A stretch of 64,000 nucleotides of DNA, from assembly GCF_000768315.1 (NCBI RefSeq), contig NZ_AQQX01000006.1:62001-126000 (forward strand), in the 5' to 3' direction. Shown here in pieces: positions 17,356-37,759 of the stretch; the first letter of the stretch is position 1; every line of letters starts with the position of its first letter. The stretch comes from Pseudooceanicola atlanticus. Its GTDB lineage: Bacteria > Pseudomonadota > Alphaproteobacteria > Rhodobacterales > Rhodobacteraceae. The position numbers and the translations under genes were made by a program. The notes beneath the pieces were generated by a model. It saw only the letters and a list, made by a program, of their open reading frames with translations. It was not told where the DNA came from and made no database searches.

Positions 17356-17422
17356 GCCGCTCTCGTCACGTGTTTGAAACAGCGGCCGTCCATCACCGGG
17401 CGGCCCGGTCCGGAGGGTGCAG

Positions 17423-18172: not shown

Positions 18173-18199
18173 GGCCGCAGGGCAGGCGAGGGACGCGCG

Positions 18200-19032: not shown

Positions 19033-19042
19033 AGGAGTGGCC

Positions 19043-20167: not shown

Positions 20168-21196
20168 ATGACCATGATACGCTTTGCCCCACTGAGTGCA
20201 GCCCTGGCCGTGGCCGGGACGCTGGCCGCGGGCCCGGCCCTGTCGCAGACGACCTTGACCGTGGCGAACTGGCTGCCGCCGTCGCATCCGCTGGTGTCGG
20301 ACGTGATCGTGCCGATGACGGAACAGATCGCGGAGGCCACCGACGGCGAGGTCGTGGCCAACATCCTGCCCGCGCCGCTCGGGCCGCCGCCGGCGCATTT
20401 CGATTTCGCGGTGAACGGCGTGGCCGACATCACCTTCGGCGTGCAGGGCTATTCCGCGGGCCGTTTCAAGACCACCAACCTGGCCGAACTGCCCTTCCTG
20501 GGGGACAGCGCCGAGGTCGTGTCGGTCGCCTACTGGCGCACCTGGGAAGCGATGCTGAAGGATGCGGGCGAATATGACGACGTGAAGGTCCTGGCGGTCT
20601 TCACCCACGGCCCCGGCGAGATCTTCGTCAAGGAGGGCGACCTGTCCGGCCCCGATGCGCTGGACGGCAAGAAGATGCGCGTCGGTGGCGGCATCGTGCA
20701 GAAGGTCGCGACCACGCTGGGCGCCGTGCCGGTGGAAGGCCCGTCCTCCAAGGCCTACGAATTGCTGAGCCAGGGCGTCGCGGACGGGATCCTGTTCCCT
20801 TATGAATCGGTGTCGTTCTTCGGCCTGATCCCGCAATTGTCCGAGGGCCTGTCGGTGCCTGGCGGTCTTTACAACACCTCGTTCTTCATCGTGATGAACA
20901 AGGGCAAGTGGGACAGCCTGACGCCCGAACAGCAAGCCGCCATCGACAGCGTCACCGGTGAACCGCTGTCGCGCATGGCCGGCCAGATGTGGGACAAGGT
21001 CGACGCTGCGGGCCTCGAGGCCATGGACGGCAAGATCAACGTCGCCGCAGCTTCGGACGAACAGGTCGCGGCCTGGAAAGAGGCACTGGCCCCGGTGATC
21101 GACGCCTCCCTGGCGGAGATCGACGAGGCAGGTGTCGATTCGGCCGCCGCGCTGGAGATGTTCATGTCGGAAATCGAAGCGGGCGCCGCTGAATGA
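20168..21196 (+). CDS. dctP: TRAP transporter substrate-binding protein DctP
   Basis: This 342-residue periplasmic protein has a signal peptide ending near residue 26 (GPALSQ) followed by TTLTVANWLPPSHPL, typical of the DctP family. The DGKKMRVGGG segment has the conserved Arg that pairs with a carboxylate ligand. Partner membrane subunits follow directly. Given the upstream operon, an aromatic or indolic carboxylate is a likely ligand, but this is inference. The dctP end overlaps dctQ by four bases. Confidence 0.9.
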   Translation: MTMIRFAPLSAALAVAGTLAAGPALSQTTLTVANWLPPSHPLVSDVIVPMTEQIAEATDGEVVANILPAPLGPPPAHFDFAVNGVADITFGVQGYSAGRFKTTNLAELPFLGDSAEVVSVAYWRTWEAMLKDAGEYDDVKVLAVFTHGPGEIFVKEGDLSGPDALDGKKMRVGGGIVQKVATTLGAVPVEGPSSKAYELLSQGVADGILFPYESVSFFGLIPQLSEGLSVPGGLYNTSFFIVMNKGKWDSLTPEQQAAIDSVTGEPLSRMAGQMWDKVDAAGLEAMDGKINVAAASDEQVAAWKEALAPVIDASLAEIDEAGVDSAAALEMFMSEIEAGAAE

Positions 21197-21747
21197 CCGA
21201 CAGCCCGAACCGGGATGACGGGGCAGGGGCGGCGCAGGCCGCCTCTGCCGAAGCTGCGGGCGGGACGCGTCCGCAATCTGCGCCGCGCATGGCGCTGGCG
21301 GTGATCTGCGGCGTGATCCTGATCGTGATGATGGCGCTGACCGTCATCGACGTGATCGGCCGCTACGGGTTCAACGCCCCGCTGATCGGCGCGACTGAAC
21401 TGACAGAGCTGTTGCTGGTCTCAGTGGTCTTCATCGGCCTGCCGGCGGTCAGCATGGATGACGGCCACGTTTCGGTCGACCTGTTCGTCAGCAAGATGCC
21501 CGTCTGGATCCAGCCGTTCCGGCGGATCTTTGTCGCGCTTGTCTCCTCGGGTGTGCTGGCCATGGTGGCCTGGCGGCTCTGGGTGCAGGGCGACCAGATA
21601 TCGGGATATGGCGGCGTGACCAATTCGCTGCGCCTGCCGGTGGCGCCGGTCGCGTGGTTCGCGGCCTTCTGCACGGCGGCGGCGATGCTGGTGACCCTGT
21701 GGCAGGTCTGGCGCGAGATCCGGGCCCTGCGCCCGCAGACGACATAG
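21193..21747 (+). CDS. dctQ: TRAP transporter small permease DctQ
   Basis: This 184-residue protein with four hydrophobic segments has the DctQ landmarks: DVIGRYGFNAPLIGATELTELLL in the first half and conserved MDDGHVSVDLF between helices two and three. The N-terminus carries about 30 extra residues rich in Ala and Gly. It overlaps dctP by four bases, and dctM follows 13 bases later. Confidence 0.92.
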   Translation: MTDSPNRDDGAGAAQAASAEAAGGTRPQSAPRMALAVICGVILIVMMALTVIDVIGRYGFNAPLIGATELTELLLVSVVFIGLPAVSMDDGHVSVDLFVSKMPVWIQPFRRIFVALVSSGVLAMVAWRLWVQGDQISGYGGVTNSLRLPVAPVAWFAAFCTAAAMLVTLWQVWREIRALRPQTT

Positions 21748-21760
21748 AAAGACCCCTGAC

Positions 21761-23059
21761 ATGGATTTCCTTGCCTCCTGGCCCATCGGCGCAGTCTGCC
21801 TGTTCGCGCTGCTGATCGTGGGCCTGCCGATCGCCTTTGCCCTGACCCTGATCGGGGTTCTGGGCACCGTGTCGATCATCGGCTGGACCCCGGCGCTGTC
21901 GCTGCTGGGCACGACCTTTTTCGACCAGGGGCGGAACTATTCCCTGTCGATCCTGCCGCTGTTCCTGATGATGGGCAATTTCGTGGTGCAATCGGGCATC
22001 GCCGAAAACCTCTATTCCGCAGCCCATGCCTGGCTGCGGCACCGCCGCGGCGGGCTGGCGCTGGCGACGGTGGTGGCCTGCGGCGGCTTTTCGTCGGTTT
22101 GCGGGTCGTCGATGGCGACCGCGGCGACGATGACGCGGATCGCGCTGCCCTCGATGCGGCGCTTCGGTTATCCCGATCACCTGGCCACGGCGTCAATTGC
22201 CGCCGGTGGCACGCTGGGCATCCTGATCCCGCCCTCGGTCATCCTGGTCTTCTACGGGATCATGACCCAGCAGGATATCGGCAAGCTGTTCCTGGCGGGC
22301 ATCGTGCCGGGGCTGATGGGCGTGCTGGGCTACGCCATCGCGGTGTCGATTTCCGTCCGGCTGGACGGGGCGAGCCTGCCATCCGAGCCCAAGCTGCCGC
22401 TGGCCGAGCGCCTGCGGGCGCTGAAGGGCACGCTGGGTGCGTTGGTGCTGTTCGTCTTCGTGATGGGCGGCATCTACCTGGGTGTCTTCACGCCGACGGA
22501 AAGCGCAGGGATGGGGGCCGCCGGTGCGTTGCTGCTGTCGATGCTGTCGGGCCGGTTCAGCCTGAAAGGTGCACTTGGGCCGCTGTTCGACGCGGCCAAG
22601 ACGACGGCGATGATGTTCTTCATCCTGTTCGGCGCGCTGACCTTCACCAATTACGTCAACCTGTCGGGCATGACCCGCGACATGCAGGACCTGCTGACCG
22701 TCTTCGGGGACAACCCGCTGGCGGTGATCCTCACGATCCTGGTGATCTACCTGCTGCTGGGCTGCATGCTGGAGGGGCTGTCTATGATCATGCTGACGGT
22801 GCCGATCTTCTACCCGGTCGTGGCCGCGCAGGGGTTCGACCTGATCTGGTTCGGCATCTTCGTCGTCGTGGTGACCGAGATCAGCTATATCACCCCGCCC
22901 GTGGGCATGAACGCCTTCGTGCTGCATGCGGTGGTCAAGGATGTGAAGCTGGGCACGATCTTTCGCGGGCTGGTGCCCTTCGTGGCGATGGACGTGGTGC
23001 GGATCGCGCTGCTGATCGGCATCCCGTCGCTGGTGCTGTTCCTGCCGGGCCGCATGTAG
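21761..23059 (+). CDS. dctM: TRAP transporter large permease DctM
   Basis: The 432-residue membrane protein has about 12 hydrophobic segments. It shows the DctM patterns FFDQGRNYSLSILPLFLMMGN, CGGFSSVCGSSMATAATM, GILIPPSVILVFYG and ITPPVGMNAFVL. It is the sodium-coupled transport subunit that works with DctP and DctQ. Its stop codon is the first codon of a 16-bp tandem duplication, followed by a strong terminator. Confidence 0.94.
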   Translation: MDFLASWPIGAVCLFALLIVGLPIAFALTLIGVLGTVSIIGWTPALSLLGTTFFDQGRNYSLSILPLFLMMGNFVVQSGIAENLYSAAHAWLRHRRGGLALATVVACGGFSSVCGSSMATAATMTRIALPSMRRFGYPDHLATASIAAGGTLGILIPPSVILVFYGIMTQQDIGKLFLAGIVPGLMGVLGYAIAVSISVRLDGASLPSEPKLPLAERLRALKGTLGALVLFVFVMGGIYLGVFTPTESAGMGAAGALLLSMLSGRFSLKGALGPLFDAAKTTAMMFFILFGALTFTNYVNLSGMTRDMQDLLTVFGDNPLAVILTILVIYLLLGCMLEGLSMIMLTVPIFYPVVAAQGFDLIWFGIFVVVVTEISYITPPVGMNAFVLHAVVKDVKLGTIFRGLVPFVAMDVVRIALLIGIPSLVLFLPGRM

Positions 23060-23141: not shown

Positions 23142-24629
23142 TCACGCCGCGCGGTATTCCGGGGTGGTGGCGAGGAAATCGCCATAGGCCTTCGCATCGG
23201 GATAGCTGAAGGTCTCGACCAGGGGATTGGAGCGTTTCCAACGGGTTGCGCCCATATCCTGCATCAATTCATCGAAATGCTGGAAGTGGAACGGGGCCGA
23301 GCAGAGGCCGCCATAGACCTGCGCCGCCGGACGTTCCTTGCGCCGCCAGTTCAGCATGAGTTCGATGTTCTGGTTCATCTCGGCCTCGCTGGGCTGGCGG
23401 GCGAGTTGCCCGTCCATGTAGCGCACCAGCCAGTTGGCGATGAGTTCCGCCGAGAGCACGGTGCAGAAGGACGAGTTGAAGCCGACAAAGCCCATATCCG
23501 GCAGGTCGGGATTCACCGACAGGCGATAGGTGCGGTACTGGCCGTCCGCCTCGATCAGCTTGTCGCGGTATTCCTGCGCCAGGTAGGGCACGCCCAGTTT
23601 CCAGCCGACCGCGAGGATCGACAGGTTGCAGGGCAGGGTCTGGCCGGTGGACAGCGTGACCTCGTTCGGGCCGTAGGACTCGATCGTGCCGATGACGGGA
23701 GTGATCTTTCCCTCGTTCAGCGCCTCGAAAAGCCCCGGCGTGACGATGGGAAGGGAGCACGACGCCTCCTTCTCGATCGGGGAGGTCGGGACCATGTTGT
23801 GCTTCTTCAGGCCCAGTTGCAGTTTCAGCAGGGTTTCCAGCCCGCGGAAATTGGCCCAGACCAGCGGCTTGGTAATGGCGGCGACGGCGCGTTTCAGCGG
23901 GTTGCGGCCCCAGCCGTTGAACTGCATTTCCTGCGCCCGCATGTAGAGCAGCCGCTTGAAGTTGATGCCGCCCACGAAATAGGGCACCCGCCAGACGTTT
24001 TCGCGGTAGACGAGGTGCACCGACTTGGCGCCGTTCCTGGCCGCGTTCACCGCGATGTCGGTGCCGGATTTGGACGCGCCCAGAACGAGGACATGCTTGC
24101 CCTCGCAGATCGTGGGATCGGTGTAATCCGAAGAATGCATGACCTGGCCGCCCGCCTCCTCGAAGGTGTCCTGACCGGGATGGGTGAGGATGTTCTTGTC
24201 GGAGAACTGGCCCGTGGCGATGGCGACGAAGTCGAAATCCTCGGTCCATTCATGGGCGCCAGAGCGCAATGTCAGCGTCCAGCCCGGGGCGCCGTCGGCG
24301 CGGCGGTCCATGGACAGGACATCGGTGTTGAGCTTGAACAGACGGGCCAGGCGATGCTTGGCGGCGTAGGAATGCAGGTAGGCGTGGACCTGCGGGCCCT
24401 TGGGCCATTCCGGATACTCGTCCGGCATCGGCAGGTCGGTATAGCTGTAGAGGTCCTTGGGCGATTGCGTCTGCACGTCCGGGTAGGAGCGCGACAATTC
24501 CCAGACCCCGCCGAAATCGTGACTGCGTTCGAAGCCGCAGACCCGGTGGCCCTTTTCGTCGAAGGCCTTGGCGGCGGCGAGGCCAGAGACCCCGCCGCCG
24601 ATCACGGCCACTTTCTTGCGATTGACCAT
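23142..24629 (-). CDS. Flavin-containing monooxygenase (FMO/BVMO-like)
   Basis: This 495-residue protein opens with KVAVIGGGVSGLAAAKAF, the FAD-binding Rossmann motif, and has GQVMHSSDYTDP, near the FMO identifying sequence, followed by VLVLGASKSGTDIA, the NADPH-binding motif. Family members oxygenate N or S atoms or ketones using a C4a-hydroperoxyflavin. The substrate is unknown. AAGGAG lies seven bases before the ATG. It is the second gene of a two-gene minus-strand operon with a cupin (11 bases between), divergent from an AraC regulator. Confidence 0.83.
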   Translation of the reverse strand: MVNRKKVAVIGGGVSGLAAAKAFDEKGHRVCGFERSHDFGGVWELSRSYPDVQTQSPKDLYSYTDLPMPDEYPEWPKGPQVHAYLHSYAAKHRLARLFKLNTDVLSMDRRADGAPGWTLTLRSGAHEWTEDFDFVAIATGQFSDKNILTHPGQDTFEEAGGQVMHSSDYTDPTICEGKHVLVLGASKSGTDIAVNAARNGAKSVHLVYRENVWRVPYFVGGINFKRLLYMRAQEMQFNGWGRNPLKRAVAAITKPLVWANFRGLETLLKLQLGLKKHNMVPTSPIEKEASCSLPIVTPGLFEALNEGKITPVIGTIESYGPNEVTLSTGQTLPCNLSILAVGWKLGVPYLAQEYRDKLIEADGQYRTYRLSVNPDLPDMGFVGFNSSFCTVLSAELIANWLVRYMDGQLARQPSEAEMNQNIELMLNWRRKERPAAQVYGGLCSAPFHFQHFDELMQDMGATRWKRSNPLVETFSYPDAKAYGDFLATTPEYRAA

Positions 24630-24640: not shown

Positions 24641-25081
24641 TTATTCCGCGTCCGGGGGCGGCAGGAAGTCGACCTCGTGCTCGGCCGAGATGCGGACAAG
24701 TTCTTCGGGATCGGTGACGCCGTCGAGCTTGCCGAACAGGTCGAACAGCTTGCGCGAGGGGGCCACGCCGAAGACGCAGGTCGCCTCGGCGCCGGAGCGG
24801 TTGAAGATGCCGTGGGCCACGCCCATGGGCATCTTGATCGTGTCGCCGGGGCCGGCCTTGTGCACGTCGGCGCCAAACTCGACCTCGAGATTGCCGGTCA
24901 GCATGACGATCCATTCATCCTGCGTGGGATGGATATGCGGCGGCACAAAGGTGCCGTCGGGGATGATCGCGTGCCAGATCATGGCGTTTTCGCTGTGCAG
25001 TTTCGGCGTGTAGGTGTGGCCGACGACGTTCCACTGCTGGCCTTCGACGCTGCCGTCGGATGCGGTGATGCCTGGTTCCAT
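24641..25081 (-). CDS. Metal-binding cupin (paralogue of the cupin at 37.3 kb)
   Basis: This 146-residue single-domain cupin has motif 1 GTFVPPHIHPTQDE (His49, His51, Glu56) and motif 2 GDTIKMPMGVAHGIFN (His90), a complete metal site. It aligns without gaps to the cupin at 37313-37759, with 49 of the first 90 residues identical by hand. Both end in EVDFLPP. Each cupin gene is followed by a flavoprotein monooxygenase gene. A dioxygenase or a ring-opening/isomerising role is possible; a pure binding role cannot be excluded. AGGAG precedes the ATG. Confidence 0.8.
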   Translation of the reverse strand: MEPGITASDGSVEGQQWNVVGHTYTPKLHSENAMIWHAIIPDGTFVPPHIHPTQDEWIVMLTGNLEVEFGADVHKAGPGDTIKMPMGVAHGIFNRSGAEATCVFGVAPSRKLFDLFGKLDGVTDPEELVRISAEHEVDFLPPPDAE

Positions 25082-25195
25082 GAGGGGTCTCTCCTGTTGA
25101 TGCGGGACCTGTCTGTCCCGTCGCCACCAGAATGCACGAACTTGCCGCAGCGCGTTATCCAGATTGCGAATCCGAAATGCCGGTTGGTCCTTGAA

Positions 25196-25204
25196 GCTTG
25201 AAAT
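25196..25204. promoter_or_regulatory. GCTTGAAAT motif in the cupin-araC intergenic region
   Basis: The same 9-mer is the right arm of the inverted repeat at 31670-31700. Here it forms part of CTTGAAGCTTGAAAT, 29 bases before the araC start. Confidence 0.35.
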
Positions 25205-25232
25205 AAATGTGACGATCGCCCAGTCTTTCTGC

Positions 25233-26228
25233 ATGACAGATGCGGGTTTGCATTCGGGAGCGGTGGATCCGGGCCTCTTGGCCGGGTTCCCGATCCTGCG
25301 GACCCGCGACCTGTCCGAGGCGCGCGAGGTCGTGGGCCGCGCCTTCTGCGACCATCGGCTGGATATACGGCAGGGCACGGACCTGTCGGTGTCCCATGAC
25401 CACGTGAGCGGGCAGGGCCTGTCGCTGAACGCGCTGAGCTATGGCGCCGAGGTCGAGATCGATCCCGGACAGCTGGGCCATTTCTACCTGCTGCAATTTC
25501 CCGTGGCCGGGGCCGCGCGTGTCTGGCACCGCGGCGAGGAGGTCGATGCCTCGACCCGCGCCGCGACGATCCTGAACCCCGACCGCGACACGCGGATGAT
25601 CTGGGGCGAAGGGTGCCGAAAGCTGTTGTTGCAGATGGATCGGCATCATCTGGAACAGGTGGCCACCGGGCTGCTGGGCGGCGAGATGCCCGGCCCGATC
25701 CGGTTCGATCCGCGGGTCGACCTTACCCGGCCCGATGGGCTGCGCCTGATGCGTCGGGTCATGTCCGCCGCCACCGCCGCCACGCGCGGAGAGCTGTGGG
25801 CCGGGCGGCCCGGCCTGCAGGAGGCCTGGGCCGAGCGGGAACTGGCCGCGGAGTTGCTGATGCTGCAGCCGAGCAATGTCAGCCACATGCTGTGGCGCGA
25901 GGCCCGCGCGCCCCTCTCGCGGGAGATGCGGCGGGCGCTGGATTACCTGCAGGCCAACATGGCCGAACCGATCTGCATCGACGATATCGCGCTGGAGGCG
26001 GGTTTGAATGTCCGCTCGCTCCAGATCGGGTTCAAGGCGGCCTTTGACCGTTCGCCCATGCGCTACCTGCGCGATCTGCGGCTGGATGCGGCCCGGTACC
26101 GGCTGAGCCGGCGGACCAACCGCGAAAGCGTGACCGAGGTTGCCTATTCGGTCGGCTTTTCCCATCTCGGCCGGTTTTCGCGCGATTACCGCGAGCGGTT
26201 CGGCGTCAGCCCGAGCGCAACCTCCTGA
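25233..26228 (+). CDS. AraC-family transcription regulator
   Basis: The 331-residue protein has an N-terminal cupin-like ligand domain of the AraC_binding_2 type and, from about residue 235, a double helix-turn-helix (ALDYLQANMAEPICIDDIALEAGLNVRSLQIGF; VTEVAYSVGFSHLGRFSRDYRERFGVSP). It is divergent from the cupin-flavin monooxygenase operon and is the likely activator of that operon. The inducer is unknown. The ATG at 25233 (MTDAGLHSG) fits homologues better than the upstream in-frame ATG at 25164. Confidence 0.85.
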   Translation: MTDAGLHSGAVDPGLLAGFPILRTRDLSEAREVVGRAFCDHRLDIRQGTDLSVSHDHVSGQGLSLNALSYGAEVEIDPGQLGHFYLLQFPVAGAARVWHRGEEVDASTRAATILNPDRDTRMIWGEGCRKLLLQMDRHHLEQVATGLLGGEMPGPIRFDPRVDLTRPDGLRLMRRVMSAATAATRGELWAGRPGLQEAWAERELAAELLMLQPSNVSHMLWREARAPLSREMRRALDYLQANMAEPICIDDIALEAGLNVRSLQIGFKAAFDRSPMRYLRDLRLDAARYRLSRRTNRESVTEVAYSVGFSHLGRFSRDYRERFGVSPSATS

Positions 26229-27417: not shown

Positions 27418-29058
27418 TCAGCCGTCATTCTTCAGTCGGAAGCGCTGGATTTTGCCCGATTCCGTCTTGGGCAGCGCCTCCACGAACTTGACCGAGCGGG
27501 GGTATTTGTAGGGGGCGATCGTGGCCTTCACGTGCTCCTGCAACGCCTTGACTGTCTTTTCGCCGGGGATGTGGTCGGGGGCCAGGACGACATGGGCCTC
27601 CACGATGGAGCCGCGATCCTCGTCGGGCTGTCCGACCACGGCGCATTCTGCCACGGCAGGGTGCGAGAGCAGGGCGGCCTCGACCTCCGGGCCGGCGATG
27701 TTGTAGCCCGAGGACACGATCATGTCGTCGTTGCGGGCGGCGAAATGCAGGTAGCCGTCCTCGTCCATCCAGAAGGCGTCGCCGGTGATGTTCCAGCCGT
27801 CCAGCACGTATTTCAACTGGCGGTCATCGGCCATGTAGCGGCAGCCGATCGGGCCGCGCACGGCAAGGCGGCCGACAGTGCCGCGTTCGACCTCTTTGCC
27901 GTCCTCGTCGATCACCTTCGCCTCGTAGCCGTTCACGGGCTTGCCGGTGCAGGCGGGCTTGTGGTCGTCGAAGCGGTTGGTGATGAAGATGTGCAGCATC
28001 TCGGTCGCGCCGATGCCGTCGAGCATGGGCTTGCCGGTCTTTTCGATCCATTCCTCGTAGACCGGCGCGGGCAGGGTCTCCCCGGCCGAAACGGCGGCAC
28101 GCAGGGTCGACAGGTCCGCGCCTTCCTCCATCGCGCGCAGCATGGCGCGGTAGGCGGTCGGGGCGGTGAAGCTGACGGTCGCCTTATATTTCTGGATGAT
28201 CTCGATCATATTGGGCGGGCTGGCATTTTCCAGCAGCGTCGCCGCCGCGCCGAAGCGGAGCGGGAAGACAGCGAGGCCACCCAGCCCAAAGGTGAAGGCC
28301 AGGGGCGGGGAGCCGACGAAGACATCCTCGGGCGTGACGCCCAGCACTTCCTTGGCGTAGCCGTCGGCGATAATCAGGATATCGCGGTGGAAATGCATCG
28401 TCGCCTTGGGTGCGCCGGTCGTGCCGGAGGTGAAGCCCAGCAGGGCCACGTCGTCGCGGCCGGTCTTCACCGCCTCGAAGGTCACGGGTTTCTCCAGGGC
28501 GAGGCGGTCAAGCTCGGCATCGTGGTTCGAGGTGCCGTCGAAGCCCACCACCTTTTCCAGGTATTCCGAGGTCTTGGCGCAGGTGGCCATTTCGTCCATC
28601 AGGCGCGTGTCGCAGAGCGCGAACTGGATCTTCGCCTTGTCCACGATGGCGGTCAGCTCGCCCGCGCGCAGCAGGGGCATGGTGTTGACGACGACCGCGC
28701 CGGCCTTGGTCGCGGCCAGCCAGACGGCGACCATGGCGGGGTTGTTGGCCGAGCGGATCAGCACCCGGTTGCCGGGCTGTACGCCCAGATCCTCGACCAT
28801 GGCGTGGGCCAGGCGGTTGGTCCAGTCGGCCAGTTCCTTGTAGGTGCGGCGGCGGCCATTCCCGATCAGCGCGGTGTGGTCACCAAAGCCCTTTTCCACC
28901 ATCGCATCAGTGAGTTCCACGCCGACGTTCAGGTAATCCGGGTAGTCGAACCCGTCGAGCAGAAGGTCGGGCCACTGATCCGCGGGCGGCAGGTGGTCGC
29001 GCGTGTAGGTGTCGACATGGGCCGAGGGGCCGAGGTTGAGGGTCTGTGCTGCACTCAT
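27418..29058 (-). CDS. 2-aminobenzoate-/benzoate-CoA ligase family protein
   Basis: This 546-residue acyl-adenylate-forming enzyme has FTSGTTGAPKATMHFHRD (phosphate loop), the DGIGATEMLHIFITN segment typical of benzoate and 2-aminobenzoate CoA ligases, the hinge AARNDDMIVSSGYNIAG and the C-terminal catalytic lysine in ESGKIQRF. It would activate anthranilate or a related benzoate to the CoA thioester. Kynureninase in the same region makes anthranilate, which favours 2-aminobenzoate. It is the last gene of the minus-strand marR-hydratase-dehydrogenase-ligase set. Confidence 0.85.
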   Translation of the reverse strand: MSAAQTLNLGPSAHVDTYTRDHLPPADQWPDLLLDGFDYPDYLNVGVELTDAMVEKGFGDHTALIGNGRRRTYKELADWTNRLAHAMVEDLGVQPGNRVLIRSANNPAMVAVWLAATKAGAVVVNTMPLLRAGELTAIVDKAKIQFALCDTRLMDEMATCAKTSEYLEKVVGFDGTSNHDAELDRLALEKPVTFEAVKTGRDDVALLGFTSGTTGAPKATMHFHRDILIIADGYAKEVLGVTPEDVFVGSPPLAFTFGLGGLAVFPLRFGAAATLLENASPPNMIEIIQKYKATVSFTAPTAYRAMLRAMEEGADLSTLRAAVSAGETLPAPVYEEWIEKTGKPMLDGIGATEMLHIFITNRFDDHKPACTGKPVNGYEAKVIDEDGKEVERGTVGRLAVRGPIGCRYMADDRQLKYVLDGWNITGDAFWMDEDGYLHFAARNDDMIVSSGYNIAGPEVEAALLSHPAVAECAVVGQPDEDRGSIVEAHVVLAPDHIPGEKTVKALQEHVKATIAPYKYPRSVKFVEALPKTESGKIQRFRLKNDG

Positions 29059-29126: not shown

Positions 29127-30284
29127 CTATCCCGCCACCGCTGCGTCGAGCGTCTGGCGGGCAATGATCACTTTCTGCACGTCGGAGGCGCCTTCGTAGA
29201 TGCGCAGCGCCCGGATCTCGCGGTAGAGCCGTTCGACCGTTTCGCCGGATTTCACCCCGTCGCCGCCATGCAGCTGCACGGCGCTGTCGATGACCTTCTG
29301 CGCCTCGTCGGTGGCAAAGAGTTTCGCCATCGCGGCCTCGCGGCTGACCCGCGGTGCGCCGCTGTCCTTGGTCCAGGCGGCACGGTAGACGAGCAGGGCG
29401 GCGGCATCGACGCGCAGCGCCATTTCCGCGATATGGGCCTGCACCATCTGCAGATCGGCCAGCGGTTTGCCCTGCACCTTGCGCGACATCACGCGGGTCG
29501 TGGCCTCGTCGAGGGCCCGGCGGGCAAAGCCAAGCGCGGCGGCGGCCACGGTGGTGCGGAACACGTCGAGCACGGACATCGCGATCTTGAAACCCTGGCC
29601 AACCTCGCCGATCAGGGCCGATTTCGGCAGGCGCGCGCCGTCGAAGCGCAGCGTGGCCAGCGGATGCGGCGCGATCGTGTCGAGGCGTTCGGCGATTTCG
29701 AACCCCGGCGTATCCGCAGGGACGATGAAGGCCGACAGTCCACGTGCGCCTTCGCCTCCGGTGCGGGCGAAAAGCGTGTAGACATCGGCGATTCCGCCAT
29801 TGGAGATCCAGGTTTTTTCCCCATCCAGAACCCATGCATCGCCGTCATCGCGGGCGGTCATGGTGGAATTGGCGACATCCGACCCAGACTGGGGTTCCGT
29901 GAGTGCGAACGCGGAAATCGCCTGACCCGAGCGGGTCTGGGGAAGCCATTCGCCCTGTTGCGCGGGCGATCCGAAGAGCGAAATGGCCCCGGTCCCAAGC
30001 CCCTGCATGGCGAAGGCAAAATCGGCCAGTCCGTCATGGCGGGCCAGCGTTTCCCGGGTGAGGCACAGGGTCCGCACGTCGAGAGGTTTCGGATCGGCCG
30101 GGTCCACGGCCGACGGTTTCAGCCAGCCATCGGCGCCCATTTTGGCGACCAGCGAACGGCAGGCATTGTCGGTGTCGTGGTGGTCGATGGGACCCAGCCC
30201 GCCGGCCCATTGATCCAGCCCGAGGGCGTGATCCTTGTGGGCAGGCGTCAGGAAGGGCCAGTCGAGAAAGCTTTGATCGGCCAT
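29127..30284 (-). CDS. Acyl-CoA dehydrogenase
   Basis: The 385-residue protein has [17 protein letters not shown] (flavin-binding) and the C-terminal signature [35 protein letters not shown], with the catalytic Glu in YEGAS. It oxidises an acyl-CoA to an enoyl-CoA with FAD. In this operon it probably acts on an alicyclic or ring-opened product of anthraniloyl-CoA metabolism. Its start overlaps the hydratase stop by one base (TGATG). Confidence 0.9.
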
Positions 30285-31084
30285 CAGTTGCCCTCGAAGA
30301 CAGGTTTTTCCTTCGCGACGAAGGCGTTGTAGGCGCGGGTGAAGTCCTCGGTCTGCATGCAGATCGCCTGGGCCTGGGCCTCGGCCTCGATCGCCTGGTC
30401 GAGCGACATGTTCCATTCCTGCTGCAGCATGGTCTTGGTCATCATGTGACCGAAATTCGGGCCTTCGGCGATCTTCTTGGCCCAGGCGACGGCCTCGGCT
30501 TCGAGATCGTCGGCGGCGACGAGACGGTTCCAGAAGCCCCAGCGTTCGCCTTCGTCCGCGTTCATGGCGCGGCCGGTATAGAGCAGTTCGTTCGCACGGC
30601 CCTGGCCGATGATCCGGGGCAGCATGGCGCAGGCGCCCATGTCGCAACCGGCCAGGCCGACGCGGGTGAAGAGGAAGGCGCATTTCGCCTCTGGCGTGGC
30701 GATCCGCAGGTCGGAGGCCATGGCGATGATCGCACCGGCGCCGACGCAGACGCCATCGGCGGCGGTGATGATCGGCTTGCCGCAATTGATCATCGACTTG
30801 ACCAGGTCGCCGGTCATCCGGGTGAACTGCAGCAGTTCCTTCATGGTCATCTTGGTGAGCGGGCCGATGATGTCGTGCACGTCTCCACCGGAAGAGAAGT
30901 TGCCGCCATTGGAGGCAAAGACCACCGCCTTGACCTCGTCATCGTAATGCAGGTCGCGGAACCAGTCGCGCAGTTCTGCGTAGCTGTCGAAGGTCAGGGG
31001 GTTCTTGCGGTCCGGACGGTCGAGCCGCACGGTGGCGATGCCGTCTTCGATGCTGCAGAGAAAATGCTTGGTGTCGGCTCTCAT
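30284..31084 (-). CDS. Enoyl-CoA hydratase family protein
   Basis: This 266-residue crotonase-fold protein has [14 protein letters not shown] (oxyanion-hole region) and [21 protein letters not shown], and keeps the conserved glycines. The usual catalytic Glu positions are partly changed ([16 protein letters not shown]), so hydratase, isomerase or hydrolase activity cannot be separated from sequence alone. It overlaps the marR gene upstream (ATGA) and the acyl-CoA dehydrogenase gene downstream, placing it in one operon. Confidence 0.85.
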
Positions 31085-31614
31085 GCCGGGTCCTCCTCGT
31101 CCTTGTGGGTGACCGCGTCAAAGCGGTCCGAGAACATCCGCGCCTCCTCGGGCGTGAAGTCCTCTAGCAATTCGTTGATCCATGTTTCGTGGGCGAGAGC
31201 CTGCTTTGCAAAGACCTCCTTGCCCTTTTGGGTGAGCCGCACGAGCGAGGCGCGGCGGTCGCCGGGCACCTGGACGCGCACGACCAGGCCTTCTTCGGCC
31301 AGCCGGTCGACAATGCCGGTGACATTGCCGTTGGAGACGCGGAGCACGCCCGAAAGCGCGCTCATCTTCAACCCGTCCTCGAAGCGGTCGAGCGCGGCCA
31401 GCACATCGAACCGGGGCAGGGTGGAGCTGAAGTCGCGGCGCAGGCGATCGCGCAGGGCGGATTCGACGCGTCGGGTGCTTTTCAGCATGCGAAGCCACAT
31501 GCGCAGCCGCTGTTTCGCGGCCATGTCCGCAGCGCCATCGACGGAGCCATCCATGGAACCATCCATGTCGGGCGTCGGTATCTGGCTATTGGCATCTGGC
31601 CCTGGCTGCGCCAC
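31081..31614 (-). CDS. MarR-family regulator with N-terminal MDGS repeats
   Basis: The 177-residue protein has a MarR core from about residue 35: [39 protein letters not shown] (recognition helix) and [15 protein letters not shown] (wing). Such regulators in CoA-ligase operons usually sense the aryl-CoA. The first 30 residues are unstructured and contain a 12-bp coding repeat giving [12 protein letters not shown]. The start is GTG at 31614, six bases after AGGAG. It heads its own operon and faces the hydrolase/ABC operon across an inverted-repeat operator. Confidence 0.87.
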
Positions 31615-31669: not shown

Positions 31670-31700
31670 ATTTCAAGCAAAAAAAGTTTGAGCTTGAAAT
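31670..31700. promoter_or_regulatory. Inverted-repeat operator in the divergent marR/hydrolase promoter
   Basis: ATTTCAAGC and GCTTGAAAT are perfect 9-bp arms separated by 13 bases. A related pair CTTCAAGT/ACTTGAAG lies at 39283-39310. Probable site of the adjacent MarR protein. Confidence 0.6.
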
Positions 31701-31705
31701 ATAAT
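31700..31705 (+). promoter_or_regulatory. -10 element TATAAT overlapping the operator
   Basis: A consensus TATAAT starts at the last base of the operator right arm, 85 bases before the hydrolase GTG. The -35 match is poor. The overlap would let a repressor block initiation. Confidence 0.4.
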
Positions 31706-31789
31706 TTTTCACGGCTAACGATGAGGGCAAGAAACAGCGATCCGGGGCGGAATATTGTCCCGAGACGTAATAAAACAAGGGAGTCTGAC

Positions 31790-32614
31790 GTGATCACCCA
31801 CGACGTGACCGATTGGGATGATGCCTATGAGAATGGGCGCAACATTCCGGGTGGTGGCAATTATCCGGCCGCCTGGGTGGAGCCGTCTGCCTCTTTTCGC
31901 GCCGCTGCGAAGGCCCGTCTCGACATCTCTTACGGAAAGGGTGACCGGCACGCCTATGACCTGTTCATGCCCGAGGGAACGCCGCGCGGATTGTTCGTCT
32001 TCGTGCATGGCGGATACTGGGTTGGGCTGGACAAGTCCTATTGGTCGCACCTGGCGGCGGGACCACTGGCCAGGGGCTGGGCGGTGGCCATGCCGTCCTA
32101 CGATCTGTGCCCGGCTGTCAGCATCGCCGAGATCACGGCGCAGGTCGGGCAGGCGATCACCCATGCCGCCGGAGAGGTCGACGGGCCGATCGTGCTGTCG
32201 GGCCATTCCGCGGGCGGCCACCTTGTCACCGCGATGATGTGCGAAGACAGCCCGTTGCCCGAAGCCGTGCGGGGACGACTGGCGCATGTCGTGTCGATTT
32301 CCGGGCTGCACGATCTGCGTCCGATGCTGAAAACCACCCGCAACGAGTTGCTGAAGCTGGACATAAAGAGCGCGGAGGCCAACAGCCCGGCGCTGAAGCG
32401 CCCGCTGCCGGGTGTGCGCCTGACGGCGTGGGTCGGTGGCACCGAACGTCAGGAATTCCTGCGCCAGAACGCGCTCTTGGCGAATATCTGGCATGGTCTG
32501 GGGGCCACGACGCTGGAGGTGGTCGAACCGGACCGCCACCATTTTAACGTGATCGACGGGCTGGGCGATCCGGGGTCCAACCTGGTCCGGGCTGCCCTGG
32601 ATCCGGTCACCTGA
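31790..32614 (+). CDS. Alpha/beta hydrolase, probable arylformamidase (kynurenine formamidase)
   Basis: The 274-residue alpha/beta hydrolase has the oxyanion-hole motif HGGYW at 73-77 and the nucleophile elbow GHSAGGH with Ser140, plus a late His in DRHHFNVIDGL. This is the AFMID-type pattern, not the cyclase-like KynB family. Hydrolysing N-formylkynurenine to kynurenine would fill the step between tryptophan dioxygenase and kynureninase, both encoded 9 kb downstream. The start is GTG at 31790, preceded by AAGGGAG; no ATG fits as well. Function is inferred from fold plus context. Confidence 0.75.
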   Translation: MITHDVTDWDDAYENGRNIPGGGNYPAAWVEPSASFRAAAKARLDISYGKGDRHAYDLFMPEGTPRGLFVFVHGGYWVGLDKSYWSHLAAGPLARGWAVAMPSYDLCPAVSIAEITAQVGQAITHAAGEVDGPIVLSGHSAGGHLVTAMMCEDSPLPEAVRGRLAHVVSISGLHDLRPMLKTTRNELLKLDIKSAEANSPALKRPLPGVRLTAWVGGTERQEFLRQNALLANIWHGLGATTLEVVEPDRHHFNVIDGLGDPGSNLVRAALDPVT

Positions 32615-32734
32615 CATCGGGGAAAAAACTTGCATTCCTACCGCGTTACGCCGCTCAATGATCGGGTCCGCGGTGCGATACAGCCAAACAAAAAGACGGC
32701 GAAGCCGCGAAAGACCTCAACAAGGGAGTTTCCA

Positions 32735-33922
32735 ATGACCCACAAGACCAAACTGCTTACCTCGACCGTGCTGGCCATGGGCCTGGCCGGGTCCGCCATG
32801 GCACAGGACGTGCCTGCCGGTGCCAGCGACGACGTGCTGAAGATCGGCCTCGTCTACACCCTTTCCGGCCCGCCGGCCGCCCTGGGTGAACAGGCGCGTG
32901 ACGGCTTCATGCTGTTTGCCGAGAAGATCGGCGAAATCGGCGGCATGGAAACCGAGATCATCGTCGTCGATGACGAAGGCCGCCCCGACCTGGCCGCCGA
33001 CAAGGCGCGCGAACTGGTGCAGCGTGACGAGGTTGATTTCGTCGTCGGCCCGATCTTCTCCAACATCCTGATGGCGATCCACCAGCCGGTCACCTCGACC
33101 GGGACGGTCCTGATCTCGACCAATGCGGGGACCTCGACCCTGGCGGGCGAAGGCTGCACGCCGAACTTCTTCGTGACGTCCTACCAGAACGACCAGATCC
33201 ACGAGGTCATGGGCGCCTATGCCGAGAACCAGGGCTACCAGAACGTGTTCCTGATGACGCCGAACTACCAGGCGGGCAAGGACAGCCAGGCGGGCTTCAA
33301 GCATTCCTACACGGGCGGCACCGCCGGTGAGATCTACACCGAGCTGGGGCAGCTGGACTTCTCGTCCGAGCTGGCGCAGATCGCGGCCTTCCAGCCCGAT
33401 GCGGTCTTTACCTTCATGCCGGGCGGCATGGGCGTGAACCTGGTGAAGCAATACAGCCAGGCCGGCCTGACCTCGATCCCGTTCCTGTCGGCCTTCACCG
33501 TGGACGAAACCACGCTGCCGGCAACGCAGGACGCGGCGCTTGGCCTGCTGGGCGGTGCGAACTGGGCCCCGGACATGGAGAACGAGGCCAACGAGACCTT
33601 CGTGACCGAATACATCGCCAAGTACGAGCACGTGCCCGGCACCTACGCGATGCAGGCCTATGACGCGGCCCAGCTGATCGACAGCGCCGTGCGCAAGGTC
33701 GGCGGCGACCTGACCGACCGCGCCGCCCTGATGGCCGCGATCAAGGAAGCCGATTTCGACAGCCCGCGCGGCGATTTCTCGTTCGGGCCGAACAACTTCC
33801 CGATCCAGGACTTCTACCTGGTCGAGGCGGTGAAGCGCGAAGACGGCTATTTCGGCACCTCGATCGTCGAGAAGATCTTCGACGATTACGCCGATAACTA
33901 CGCCGATCAGTGCGAAATGTAA
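32735..33922 (+). CDS. Branched-chain-type ABC transporter substrate-binding protein
   Basis: This 395-residue LivK-like periplasmic protein has a signal peptide ending near residue 20 (GSAMAQ), then LKIGLVYTLSGPPAALGEQARDG, the usual start of the ligand-binding fold. Despite the name of the family, many members bind aromatic acids. AAGGGA precedes the ATG. Four transport genes follow in order, making a full importer, and the surrounding genes point to an aromatic ligand such as anthranilate or kynurenine; this is inference. Confidence 0.9.
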   Translation: MTHKTKLLTSTVLAMGLAGSAMAQDVPAGASDDVLKIGLVYTLSGPPAALGEQARDGFMLFAEKIGEIGGMETEIIVVDDEGRPDLAADKARELVQRDEVDFVVGPIFSNILMAIHQPVTSTGTVLISTNAGTSTLAGEGCTPNFFVTSYQNDQIHEVMGAYAENQGYQNVFLMTPNYQAGKDSQAGFKHSYTGGTAGEIYTELGQLDFSSELAQIAAFQPDAVFTFMPGGMGVNLVKQYSQAGLTSIPFLSAFTVDETTLPATQDAALGLLGGANWAPDMENEANETFVTEYIAKYEHVPGTYAMQAYDAAQLIDSAVRKVGGDLTDRAALMAAIKEADFDSPRGDFSFGPNNFPIQDFYLVEAVKREDGYFGTSIVEKIFDDYADNYADQCEM

Positions 33923-33951: not shown

Positions 33952-34869
33952 ATGATGAACCTCTTCGTGCTCCAACTACTCAACGGAGTGCAGCTCGGGG
34001 TGCTGTTGTTCCTGATCGCGGCGGGCTTGACCCTGGTGTTCGGGATCATGGACGTGATCAACCTCGCCCATGGCGTCCTCTACATGGTGGGCGCCTACCT
34101 GATCGCCACCTTTGCGGCGGCGACCGGCAATTTCTGGTGGGGCCTCCTGCTGATGCTGCCAGCCGCCGTCCTGGTGGGGATGGTGTTGGAATTCGTGGTG
34201 ATGCGACGATTATATGCGCGCTCTCACCTCGACCAGGTGCTGGCCACCTTCGGGCTGGTGATGATAGCCAGTGAAGCGGTCAAGATGATCTGGGGCACCT
34301 CGCCGCTTTCGGTGCCGATGCCCGAGATCCTGTCCGGTGCCGTGCCATTGATGGGCCCGCTGAAATACCCGGTCTACCGGATCGCGGTGATCGTGGCGGG
34401 GCTGGCCGTGGCCGTGGGGCTGTTCGTTCTGGTCAACTACACCCGTGTCGGTATGCTGCTGCGCGCCGGGGCGACCAACCGGTCGACCGTTTCCGCGCTC
34501 GGCGTCGATATCAACCGGCTGTTTTCCGTCGTCTTTACCCTGGGCGCCGTGCTGGCCTGCCTGGCCGGTGCGCTGGTCGCGCCGATCCTGTCGGTGGATA
34601 CAGGCATGGGCGAGAGCGTTCTGATCCTGACCTTCGTGGTCGTCGTCATCGGCGGCATCGGATCGATCAAGGGGGCCTTCCTGGGCGCCCTGCTGGTCGC
34701 CATCGTCGACACGGTCGGTGGCGTCTTCGGGCCGATCTGGCTGCGGCAAATCCTGGACCCGGCTGCGGCGGGGCAGGTGGGTCGCGTGCTGGGGCCGATG
34801 CTGGTCTACATCCTGATGGCCGTCATCCTGTTTGCAAAACCCGCAGGTCTGTTCGGGAGGCGCGCATGA
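33952..34869 (+). CDS. Branched-chain-type ABC permease, LivH-like
   Basis: The 305-residue membrane protein has about eight hydrophobic segments, LNGVQLGVLLFLIAAGLTLVFG at the N-terminus, IMDVINLAHGVLYMVGAY and FVVVVIGGIGSIKGAFLGAL (the ATPase-contacting loop). It is one half of the transmembrane channel with LivM. It starts 29 bases after the binding-protein gene and overlaps the livM-like gene by four bases. Confidence 0.93.
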   Translation: MMNLFVLQLLNGVQLGVLLFLIAAGLTLVFGIMDVINLAHGVLYMVGAYLIATFAAATGNFWWGLLLMLPAAVLVGMVLEFVVMRRLYARSHLDQVLATFGLVMIASEAVKMIWGTSPLSVPMPEILSGAVPLMGPLKYPVYRIAVIVAGLAVAVGLFVLVNYTRVGMLLRAGATNRSTVSALGVDINRLFSVVFTLGAVLACLAGALVAPILSVDTGMGESVLILTFVVVVIGGIGSIKGAFLGALLVAIVDTVGGVFGPIWLRQILDPAAAGQVGRVLGPMLVYILMAVILFAKPAGLFGRRA

Positions 34870-35858
34870 GCGATCTGACCGCAACCGCGCCGGGCCGGGC
34901 CGCGCCGAGAATGGCGGGCCGGGTCAAGGCCGCGATCATCCTTTTCATCCTGTTCGCGCTGATGCCGCCGCTGGCCTCGGCGCTGGACGACCCGTTCTAC
35001 GTGCTGATCGGCACCCGGATCCTGGCATATGCGATTGCCGCTTTGGCGCTGGACCTGATCCTGGGCTACGGCGCGATGGTGTCCTTCGGGCATGCGGCCT
35101 ATCTGGGCTTCGGCTCCTACGCGGTGGCGATCCTGTCGAGCTACGGGATCAACGATCTGGGCCTGCAATTGCTGTTCGGGATCACCCTGTCGGCGGTCTT
35201 CGCGCTGATTACCGGGGCGATTTCGCTACGCACGCAGGGCGTCTACTTCATCATGATCACGCTGGCCTTCGGTCAGATGGCGTTCTTCTTCTTCATTTCG
35301 CTGTCGGCCTATGGCGGGGATGACGGGTATGGCCTGTCCGAACGGTCGACCCTGATGGGCATCGACATCCTGCAAAGCGATTTCGGCCTCTACTACGTCA
35401 CGCTGGCACTGCTGATCGCGATGTTCGTGCTGTGCCACCGGATCGTCATGTCGCGTTTTGGCCGGGTGCTGACCGGCATCCGCGAGAACCCGACCCGGAT
35501 GGAGGCGATCGGCTATTCGCCCTTCCGCTACCAGCTGACGGCCTTCATCATCTCGGGCTGCATCACGTCGGTCGCCGGGGTCCTGCTGGCCAACCAGGCG
35601 CAGTTCGTGTCGCCGGCCTTCATGTCCTGGCACCGGTCGGGCGAACTGATCGTGATGGTCGTTCTGGGCGGCGTGGGCACGCTGACCGGCCCCATCGGCG
35701 GGGCGGTGGCCGCGCTGCTGCTGGAGGAATGGCTGGGCGCGCTGTCGGAACATTGGCGCCTGTGGTTCGGCATCTTCCTGGTGCTGATGGTGCTGTTCTC
35801 GCCGCGCGGGATCACCGGGGTACTGGAACGTATGGGCATCGTGAGGACACGCCAATGA
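34866..35858 (+). CDS. Branched-chain-type ABC permease, LivM-like
   Basis: The 330-residue membrane protein has LGYGAMVSFGHAAYLGFGSY, LRTQGVYFIMITLAFGQM and VVLGGVGTLTGPIGGAV, all typical of LivM. The N-terminal 20 residues are Ala/Pro-rich. It overlaps its neighbours on both sides by four bases (ATGA), showing tight translational coupling in the importer operon. Confidence 0.93.
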   Translation: MSDLTATAPGRAAPRMAGRVKAAIILFILFALMPPLASALDDPFYVLIGTRILAYAIAALALDLILGYGAMVSFGHAAYLGFGSYAVAILSSYGINDLGLQLLFGITLSAVFALITGAISLRTQGVYFIMITLAFGQMAFFFFISLSAYGGDDGYGLSERSTLMGIDILQSDFGLYYVTLALLIAMFVLCHRIVMSRFGRVLTGIRENPTRMEAIGYSPFRYQLTAFIISGCITSVAGVLLANQAQFVSPAFMSWHRSGELIVMVVLGGVGTLTGPIGGAVAALLLEEWLGALSEHWRLWFGIFLVLMVLFSPRGITGVLERMGIVRTRQ

Positions 35859-37312: not shown

Positions 37313-37759
37313 ATGATACCTGGTGTCACGAAATCCAATTCCGGGATGGAAGAGATCAGCTGGAACATTCTGGGTCAGACCTATGTGCCCAAGCTGAAAT
37401 CGGAAAACTCCATGGCCTGGCACGCCACCCTGCCCAAGGGGACCTTCGTGCCGCCGCATATCCACCCCACCCAGGACGAGTTCATCTATGTCCTTGAGGG
37501 CCGGTTCGACCTGCTGCTGAACGGCGTGGAAACCTATGCGGAGCCGGGCGACACGATCCGCCTGCCGATGGGCATCCCGCACGGGATCTTCAACAAGACC
37601 GACACCACGATCAAGTGCCTGTTCTGGGTCGCGCCGACCCGCCGGCTCTATGATCTGTTCTGGGCGCTGCACAACCTCGGCCCCGAACCGAACCCGGCGG
37701 ATGTCGTCGCGATCTCGGCCAAGCACGAGGTGGATTTCCTGCCGCCCGAGGAGGAGTGA
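37313..37759 (+). CDS. Metal-binding cupin next to PhzS-like monooxygenase
   Basis: The 148-residue cupin has motif 1 GTFVPPHIHPTQDE (His49, His51, Glu56) and motif 2 GDTIRLPMGIPHGIFN (His90), all four metal ligands. It is the paralogue of the cupin at 24641-25081. AAGGAG precedes the ATG, and the flavoprotein gene begins four bases after its stop. In an anthranilate pathway it could cleave a hydroxylated ring as a dioxygenase, but single-domain cupins have many roles and no substrate can be read from the sequence. Confidence 0.8.
   Translation: MIPGVTKSNSGMEEISWNILGQTYVPKLKSENSMAWHATLPKGTFVPPHIHPTQDEFIYVLEGRFDLLLNGVETYAEPGDTIRLPMGIPHGIFNKTDTTIKCLFWVAPTRRLYDLFWALHNLGPEPNPADVVAISAKHEVDFLPPEEE

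Follow-up and report, generated by a model that had tools for sequence, protein, structure and literature searches.

What does a small cupin do beside a flavin monooxygenase, and why does the same kind of cupin stand beside monooxygenases of different classes? These questions are raised by a 64,000-nucleotide stretch of the genome of Pseudooceanicola atlanticus (the window; contig 44 of the 4.94-Mb genome, G000). A first-pass annotation of this DNA had noted paralogous cupin–flavin monooxygenase pairs at two places in the window, and BLASTP and profile searches confirm the observation. We refer to the two proteins as cupin A and cupin B, after the clades to which they belong (Table 1).

Table 1. 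Genes of the window discussed in the text, in order of position
Feature	Position	Strand	Remarks
TRAP transporter DctPQM	20168..23059	+	convergent with the cupin A–FMO pair; named from sequence
FMO-type flavin monooxygenase, 495 aa, partner of cupin A	23142..24629	-	PF00743, E 2e-38
Cupin A, 146 aa, clade A	24641..25081	-	Cupin_2, E 3.5e-12
AraC-type regulator	25164..26228	+	divergent from cupin A; start uncertain; named from sequence
Aryl-CoA ligase, anthranilate-CoA ligase type	27418..29058	-	584 bits to the pAL1 ligase
Acyl-CoA dehydrogenase, aminobenzoyl-CoA operon type	29127..30284	-	profile match and conserved neighbourhood
Enoyl-CoA hydratase PRK08258	30284..31084	-	profile match
MarR-type regulator of aminobenzoyl-CoA operon	31081..31614	-	named from conserved neighbourhood
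Alpha/beta hydrolase, HGGYW and GHSAGG motifs	31688..32614	+	start uncertain; relatives: kynurenine formamidase and pAL1 hydrolase
LivK-type substrate-binding protein	32630..33922	+	sequence and annotated homologues
LivH-type permease	33952..34869	+	sequence and annotated homologues
LivM-type permease	34866..35858	+	sequence and annotated homologues
LivG-type ATPase	35855..36604	+	start inferred within ORF 35432-36604
LivF-type ATPase	36604..37290	+	directly 5' of cupin B; sequence and annotated homologues
Cupin B, 148 aa, clade B	37313..37759	+	Cupin_2, E 1.9e-17
PhzS/PRK07538-type FAD monooxygenase, 415 aa, partner of cupin B	37764..39011	+	PF01494, E 1.9e-22
4HBT-type thioesterase	39422..39841	+	profile match
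RidA-type imine/enamine deaminase	39838..40236	+	PF01042
Tryptophan 2,3-dioxygenase	40528..41358	+	PF03301, E 2.5e-68
Kynureninase	41355..42551	+	KYNU_C, E 5e-36

The two cupins are clearly related, with 77 of 145 residues identical (53%; 166 bits, E 2e-58 in a single BLASTP comparison). Our recount over the first 90 residues gives 49 identities, the number stated in the first-pass annotation, and the EVDFLPP end that it described is present near the C terminus of both proteins. The alignment had been called gap-free. This holds up to about residue 122, beyond which BLASTP requires a three-residue gap. The same four metal ligands had also been claimed for both, and H49, H51, E56, and H90 do lie at identical positions in cupins A and B. 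These presumed ligands are invariant across 75 aligned family members, and in a sequence alignment their positions match the HxHx4E + H pattern of YxaG. Judged by sequence, the three histidines and one glutamate of a quercetinase-type site are conserved in these cupins as presumed metal ligands. Membership among the WbuC-type cupins (TIGR04366) was rejected because the window cupins score 23.2 and 27.7 bits, under the curated NCBIfam cut-off of 42 bits. The best sequence match in the PDB reaches E 6e-14, yet it spans 56 core residues only.

Each cupin comes first in a pair of genes, as had been reported, with 11 bases between cupin A and the FMO and 4 bases between cupin B and the FAD monooxygenase. 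The FMO scores 132.6 bits against PF00743 (gathering cut-off 22) and belongs to that family. The partner of cupin B scores 564 bits against PRK07538, above the NCBIfam cut-off of 400. Its closest PDB chains, 2rgj and 3c96 (E 3e-83), are named "flavin-containing monooxygenase" and are presumably PhzS, which is 5-methylphenazine-1-carboxylate monooxygenase. The cupin B partner thus resembles PhzS in sequence. No phenazine genes were noticed around it. Similarity between the two monooxygenases is at chance level (best BLASTP E 2.9), so they represent different classes, as the first-pass annotation had it. We know of no PF00743 enzymes that act as quinolone hydroxylases.

The pairing is not peculiar to this genome. 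We searched 295 genomes of the same family for cupins (threshold E 1e-15), scoring 5 FMO, 6 PhzS, 3 ACMR (aminobenzoyl-CoA monooxygenase/reductase), and at most 13 cupin candidates per genome. The cupin family occurs in 49 copies in 37 genomes. At E 1e-60, all 17 FMO homologues with at least 73% identity directly adjoin a cupin, usually with both on one strand and the cupin first; one remote match (34%, G124) has no adjoining cupin. PhzS-type homologues of at least 449 bits, a threshold chosen after inspection of the data, are found in 14 genomes, and all of these carry the cupin; a further 101 genomes have matches of 408 bits or less only. Cupin and PhzS-type gene are neighbors in 13 of the 14, and in the exception, G054, they lie on different contigs. 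One genome, G278, has both cupins and no FMO match at E 1e-60. Homologues of the AraC-type regulator also adjoin cupin A–FMO pairs in further genomes. The proposed association with flavin monooxygenases therefore holds elsewhere and is near complete for clades A and B.

A wider set of 136 cupins in 123 loci (L033-L155) was examined for partners within three genes. A PhzS-type gene accompanies 84 of the 88 cupins labeled B. The 30 cupins labeled A have an FMO in 17 cases, a PhzS-type gene in 11, and neither in 2, and aminobenzoyl-CoA operon genes stand near 15 of the 18 cupins labeled C. These labels name the best-matching query, and the tree described below is a better guide. The last 80 loci (L076-L155) were the ones most similar to cupin B among at least 580, which biases them towards clade B. 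Because loci L033-L220 include genome duplicates (L039/L087, L046/L108) and overlapping species, locus counts are not independent, and the 295-genome counts are fairer. At least 580 related cupin stretches were found in one scan. In the plasmid records examined, such genes are annotated "cupin domain-containing protein", and no paper among those that our searches listed in the open-licence PMC literature treats this family.

As controls we used 20 PRK07538 neighborhoods, taken from the 101 genomes with lower-scoring matches only and from second copies. None of the 20 contains a cupin of the window family (E 1e-10), nor the alpha/beta hydrolase, a ligase above 300 bits, or an ACMR above 500 bits; one locus (L233) has a 280-bit ACMR-like match.

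A small cupin of another kind immediately precedes the PRK07538 gene in four control loci (L222, L223, L224, L239). The control is thus clean with respect to the window family and not for cupins generally. This second cupin has 148 residues and stands with a Liv cluster and a more distant PRK07538 gene; L239 belongs to the window's own genome (G000:C5). It matches the window family marginally in three loci (E 0.001-0.015) and not at all in L223, and it is related to a cupin of the pAL1 operon (39-47 bits). By Pfam, the L239 cluster opens with three molybdenum hydroxylase subunits, and L224 and L222 have genes similar to these in sequence. The L239 large subunit is related alike to 4-hydroxybenzoyl-CoA reductase, CO dehydrogenase, and quinoline 2-oxidoreductase. 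These clusters may be N-heterocycle clusters. Since a separate cupin stands beside PRK07538 genes in four control loci, pairs with flavin monooxygenases seem to have originated in more than one family of cupins.

A tree of the window family shows how partners are distributed. It holds 104 of 170 sequences after thinning and was built by a quick method with SH-aLRT support only and several long branches. Three clades, A (99), B (85), and C (99), and a loose group D (84) were recovered. In the window's family, the FMO accompanies clade A. Of the 10 loci of family f8, 7 (L197, L200, L204, L207, L209, L218, L220) have it beside a cupin that the tree or the label assigns to clade C, as does L212; the other three f8 cupins labeled C (L202, L208, L210) have no adjoining FMO. 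PhzS-type genes accompany clade B and basal clade A cupins. Group D has other partners: a luciferase-like monooxygenase (PF00296) with an FMN reductase in Mesorhizobium amorphae (L157) and DszC-like monooxygenases (PF08028) in L060, L196, and L198, which L205 resembles. Pfam confirmed these partners in L157, L060, and L196. In L065 (G027, a tenth family genome lacking both usual partners, in addition to nine described below), the cupin stands with a further FAD hydroxylase, a phenol-hydroxylase-like PF01494 protein with a Rng_hyd_C domain. Five loci (L053, L103, L117, L120, L154) combine cupin A, the alpha/beta hydrolase, cupin B, and PhzS in a single run, in L053, L103, and L154 in the tight order cupin A–hydrolase–cupin B–PhzS. 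The family is spread over Rhodobacterales and Rhizobiales and also occurs in one Pseudonocardia.

The same cupin keeping company with unrelated flavoenzymes, which had been proposed from two pairs, is therefore a stronger pattern than claimed, extending over PF00743, PhzS-type, PF00296, PF08028, and phenol-hydroxylase-like PF01494 partners. It had further been suggested that the cupin acts on a class of products, not as a subunit of one enzyme. Partner exchange across monooxygenase classes and cupin clades, together with the G278 genome, in which no FMO match was found, makes a dedicated subunit of one enzyme unlikely. Action on the products is an interpretation of this pattern, and the common denominator looks narrower than a product class: the routes seemingly end in anthranilate. 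The suggestion is further limited by clade C cupins, which mostly stand in the aminobenzoyl-CoA operon with no monooxygenase partner of their own.

Anthranilate is suggested by the genes around the cupins and elsewhere in the genomes. ACMR (E 1e-120 or better) is present in 32 of the 37 cupin genomes versus 74 of the 258 others (Fisher p 1.6e-11). In the window's genome, it lies on another contig (C12:644817-647084), and named records annotate it as "bifunctional salicylyl-CoA 5-hydroxylase/oxidoreductase". ACMR has no match in 5 of the 37 cupin genomes. Conversely, 74 of the 106 ACMR genomes lack the cupin, which therefore looks like a feeder of the lower pathway; a place in its core, the aminobenzoyl-CoA pathway itself, was rejected for the same reason. 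The amidase-like alpha/beta hydrolase falls within the fetched flanks of 58 of 157 cupin loci versus 0 of 20 controls. Gene order varies around these parts. Aurantimonas and Methylobacterium have, with small variations, Liv–cupin B–PhzS–SDR–ECH–ACAD–ligase–RidA–hydrolase. One SAR116 MAG and one Rhodobiaceae MAG have hydrolase–DctP and cupin B–PhzS–DctQM, and a Pseudonocardia (L152) has cupin B–PhzS with a different alpha/beta hydrolase. The common theme of these modules seems to be conversion towards anthranilate.

The window hydrolase shares 34% identity over 239 residues with the alpha/beta hydrolase of pAL1 (E 3e-29) and matches kynurenine formamidase 4e11 at E 3e-16; its closest PDB chain is 2pbl, named as an esterase. 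Its homologues are divided between N-acylanthranilate amidase and arylformamidase activities, and both its homology and its catalytic motifs fit a putative enzyme of either kind. Being kynurenine formamidase-like, it could serve the tryptophan route encoded in the window. We looked at 25 genomes with cupin–PhzS modules, chosen for loci that combine the cupin with PhzS and, with few exceptions, the hydrolase, and that contain neither tryptophan 2,3-dioxygenase nor KynU (L092 was left out). Tryptophan 2,3-dioxygenase is present elsewhere in 13 of these genomes and absent from 12, an absence that is weak for three of the 12 (L093, L095, L102) because they are MAGs. Since 11 of the 12 nevertheless have the hydrolase in the fetched locus, it does not serve formylkynurenine solely, a role we rejected on this ground. 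The modules are likewise independent of the formylkynurenine route, given the 12 genomes without the dioxygenase.

The predicted structures add a further clue. AlphaFold2 models of cupin B (pLDDT 95.1) and cupin A (94.3) have a cupin fold. In VIA-align comparisons, where rows differing by 1 or less in Z count as tied, quercetinases take ranks 1-6 for cupin B (8hfb, 2h0v, 5flh, 1y3t, 5flj, 1h1i; Z 16.6-15.0 over 139-143 residues, with 8hfb at 143 residues and 2.1 A). They take ranks 1-5 for cupin A (1y3t, 5flh, 8hfb, 2h0v, 5flj; Z 16.6-15.9 over 134-141 residues, with 5flh at 140 residues and 2.1 A). KdgF, TM1459, and DddK are the next matches, at Z 13-15 over 102-122 residues. Phosphomannose isomerase appears at Z 14-15, and CucA at Z 13.8-14.9 with most of the chain covered. 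In the models, the similarity to quercetinases extends over nearly the whole chain and takes in the helices that follow the barrel. HAAO, gentisate, and other cupin dioxygenases are not among the 50 fold matches listed, which excludes nothing. Prior work describes a quercetinase metal bound by three histidines and one glutamate, and metal-promoted systems that convert 3-hydroxy-4-oxoquinolines to CO and N-acylanthranilate (PMC6479552). A common fold and common ligands do not prove that the predicted proteins carry out this reaction.

We propose, with a probability of roughly 0.4, that the cupin, as a metal-dependent dioxygenase, opens a ring in the compound made by its partner monooxygenase and would be a non-homologous replacement of Hod. 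Pairings, partner swaps, genomic context, predicted fold, and conserved ligand positions are what we observe; the chemistry, the order of steps, and all substrates are what we infer from them. The monooxygenase would add an enol-type hydroxyl to a benzo-fused N-heterocycle. For the PhzS-type enzymes our guess is a 4-quinolone, for example kynurenate or a related compound, and for the FMO-type enzymes it is an indole. The cupin would then add O2 by quercetinase chemistry, opening the nitrogen ring to give N-acyl- or N-formyl-anthranilate, and CO would be lost where the substrate is a 3-hydroxy-4-quinolone. The alpha/beta hydrolase would strip the acyl group, leaving anthranilate for activation by the CoA ligase, and the aminobenzoyl-CoA pathway with ACMR would continue from there. 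Such a cupin would be usable behind several monooxygenase classes, replacing the cofactor-free Hod and AqdC. A broader version is more tentative still: that a family of quercetinase-like monocupins is a second, metal-dependent way of opening 3-hydroxylated N-heterocycles (quinolones, indoles) with release of CO or a formyl group, combined like cassettes with two families of alpha/beta hydrolase and with flavin monooxygenases from at least four unrelated classes, so that different heterocycles are channeled into anthranilate.

Some loci speak against ring opening. Nine of the 295 genomes have a clade C cupin only, with neither FMO nor close PhzS (G023, G034, G101, G121, G188, G212, G227, G247, G285). 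Seven of these nine loci lie within aminobenzoyl-CoA or tryptophan genes. Neither context appears in the other two: L067 is on a short contig of the 62%-complete G212, and L069 lies at a contig end of G227, with the hydrolase adjoining the cupin. A clade C cupin also stands in the aminobenzoyl-CoA operon of Ruegeria pomeroyi (DSS-3 SPO_RS21870) and of Paracoccus versutus. Its substrate must come from ACMR, from tryptophan metabolism, or from another monooxygenase, and at least clade C needs a different explanation. A single ring-opening step also does not explain two cupins in one operon, as in the five combined runs (L053, L103, L117, L120, L154). Further points against the proposal are the three f8 cupins labeled C that have no adjoining FMO, the presence of the hydrolase in just 58 of 157 loci, its possible service to the tryptophan route (13 of the 25 genomes do have tryptophan 2,3-dioxygenase), and the lack of known quinolone hydroxylases among PF00743 enzymes.

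The cupin might instead work on the monooxygenase product without O2, as a metal-dependent isomerase, lyase, dehydratase, or hydrolase by which an unstable hydroxylated intermediate is rearranged or opened. KdgF and DddK are non-oxygenase cupins and RemF is a cyclase, and a cupin of this sort could accept several products. KdgF, phosphomannose isomerase, and DddK follow close behind the quercetinases in the fold comparison (Z 14-15), and RemF is a sequence match of the cupin at E 5e-6. We nevertheless consider this rather unlikely. Among the top matches, those that extend along almost the entire chain and take in both C-terminal helices are quercetinases, followed by CucA, whereas KdgF and DddK align over 109-122 residues, and the cupin's place in the gene set is that of the dioxygenase in the pAL1 and aqd pathways. 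A further reading would keep the cupin closest to the flavoenzyme, as its subunit, metallochaperone, or by-product scavenger and not as the next enzyme. The near-perfect adjacency, usually with the cupin upstream of the FMO on the same strand, would suit such an accessory. Yet the partners have unrelated folds (PF00743, PF01494, PF00296, PF08028) and are swapped, G278 keeps cupin A where no FMO match is found, clade C cupins stand without a partner, and all four ligand positions are invariant, which together make an accessory role improbable.

Clade C brings up another role, in the lower pathway. Ring-cleaving cupins have precedents in the 3-hydroxyanthranilate and 5-nitrosalicylate dioxygenases, and the family could by that example cleave hydroxylated anthranilate, anthraniloyl-CoA, or the ACMR product. 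Clade C cupins are embedded in an operon of the order ACMR–SDR–MarR–ECH–ACAD–cupin–thioesterase–RidA–ligase. ACMR too belongs to the flavin monooxygenases, and it can yield 5-hydroxyanthraniloyl-CoA when NADH is limiting (PMC3534580). The lower pathway does not need the cupin, however, since 74 of 106 ACMR genomes do without it, and 5 of 37 cupin genomes have no ACMR match. The presumed metal site also looks different: gentisate and salicylate cupins use three histidines, and 3-hydroxyanthranilate dioxygenase two histidines and one glutamate (PMC10306065), whereas three histidines and a glutamate are invariant here. Relative to 3-hydroxyanthranilate 3,4-dioxygenase, the window family thus has a further invariant ligand-like histidine. 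We judge a lower-pathway role to be quite unlikely for the family.

The modules bring together parts whose kinds are all known, in a combination for which our searches of the open-licence PMC literature listed no description. Opening of 3-hydroxy-4-quinolones is credited to cofactor-free enzymes of the alpha/beta-hydrolase fold in PMC8961568 and PMC6479552. If our proposal is true, this would be a clean non-homologous replacement that links the worlds of flavonol and quinolone dioxygenases. It would give a testable function to several hundred genes annotated "cupin domain-containing protein", routes for the use of tryptophan-derived heterocycles in roseobacters, rhizobia, and methylobacteria, and new candidate enzymes for cleaving quinolone signals. 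The swapped partners on the tree also open a general question to testing: how one downstream enzyme can be reused behind unrelated oxygenases.

A close parallel in gene content is plasmid pAL1 of Arthrobacter sp. Rue61a. There the Hod gene (meqE) stands between those of an FAD-dependent monooxygenase and an alpha/beta hydrolase, and the genes of an AMP-binding protein, the anthranilate-CoA ligase, and of ACMR lie further on. The hydrolase beside Hod, recorded as an alpha/beta hydrolase, we take to be the N-acylanthranilate amidase. It is of the same kind as the window's, the ligase and ACMR are also common to both systems, and the pAL1 FAD_binding_3 monooxygenase shares 25% identity over 360 positions with the partner of cupin B. 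The difference lies in the ring-opening place, which Hod/MeqE holds in pAL1 and which the cupin would hold here; searches for Hod homologues gave no match either in the window (E 1e-3) or in the other loci covered (E 1e-5). The pAL1 ligase/ACMR operon has a cupin of its own, which we considered as a relative that might reveal the role and rejected as a member of another cupin family (31% over 48 residues, E 0.017). Quinaldine degradation by this pathway ends in CO, acetate, and anthranilate (PMC3534580).

The quercetinases, among them YxaG of Bacillus, the Ni-quercetinase 5flh/5flj, and 1h1i, have in common with the window cupins the predicted fold, two C-terminal helices, and the presumed ligand set of three histidines and a glutamate. 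They differ in sequence (15-20% identity), and the window proteins are monocupins of about 147 residues in an anthranilate, not a flavonol, gene context. In gene context alone, the modules match the HQD family (Hod, Qdo, AqdC), with an FAD monooxygenase and an N-acylanthranilate amidase-like gene, the hydrolase in 58 of 157 loci; the cupins themselves fall outside this family, being predicted to have a cupin and not an alpha/beta-hydrolase fold. In the aqdABC genes of Rhodococcus and Mycobacteroides, the monooxygenase AqdB, the dioxygenase AqdC, and the N-acylanthranilate amide hydrolase AqdA, a carboxylesterase type B protein, lead to anthranilate (PMC5332414). The window module would follow the same three-step logic. 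AqdC, like Hod, is cofactor-less and of the alpha/beta-hydrolase fold (PMC8961568), whereas the candidate here is a metal-binding cupin. By analogy, the set of FAD monooxygenase, cupin, hydrolase, and ligase is a copy of the quinaldine and alkylquinolone pathways in which the cupin would take the place of Hod or AqdC.

The island holds a third flavin-monooxygenase set, which lacks a cupin. The 118-aa protein of this set has no Pfam match. The bifunctional aminobenzoyl-CoA monooxygenase/reductase (ACMR) of the source genome lies outside the window, and its neighbours are a further oxygenase of the DszC-like kind, a gene resembling flavin reductases, a thioesterase, RidA, and MarR.

The alpha/beta hydrolase in the Mesorhizobium amorphae locus is of a family that also adjoins DszC-paired cupins in loci L060, L196, L198, and L205 (216–257 bits). 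A second type of cupin, 148 aa long and distinct from the studied family, is found immediately 5′ of a more distant PRK07538 gene (flavin monooxygenase) in L239, from another contig of the source genome, and in L222, L223, and L224. This arrangement occurs in 4 of the 20 control loci, and its setting is a Liv cluster. The L239 cluster has molybdenum-hydroxylase subunits at its start, as identified by Pfam, and sequence likeness suggests that L222 and L224 resemble it in gene content.

Two small features of the window were also recorded. The AsnC/Lrp protein is without the DNA-binding part. The tRNA-Pro call, lying within what by appearance is a membrane protein gene, is probably a false positive.

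Coordinates of the features (window positions unless a locus or contig is named)
Feature	Position	Content
Third flavin-monooxygenase set	15608-19540	DszC/HsaA-like two-component monooxygenase, 118-aa protein, SDR, reductase, flavin reductase
M. amorphae pM0123d set	L157:9282-14319	In gene order: FMN reductase, monooxygenase of the luciferase-like type, alpha/beta hydrolase, cupin, protein with a metallo-beta-lactamase fold, SDR
ACMR locus	L242 (G000:C12:636001-656000)	
148-aa cupin–PRK07538 pair	L239:8514-10688 (G000:C5)	
Stand-alone AsnC/Lrp ligand-binding domain	40264-40500	78 aa; between RidA and tryptophan 2,3-dioxygenase
tRNA-Pro call	14705-14776	ARAGORN; within ORF 14228-15031
pAL1 anthraniloyl-CoA operon	L245:22136-29049	

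The anthraniloyl-CoA operon of pAL1, the quinaldine-pathway plasmid of Arthrobacter sp. Rue61a, contains a cupin adjoining a fumarylacetoacetate-hydrolase-like gene. Because this cupin belongs to another family, cupins seem to have entered anthraniloyl-CoA-type operons more than once.
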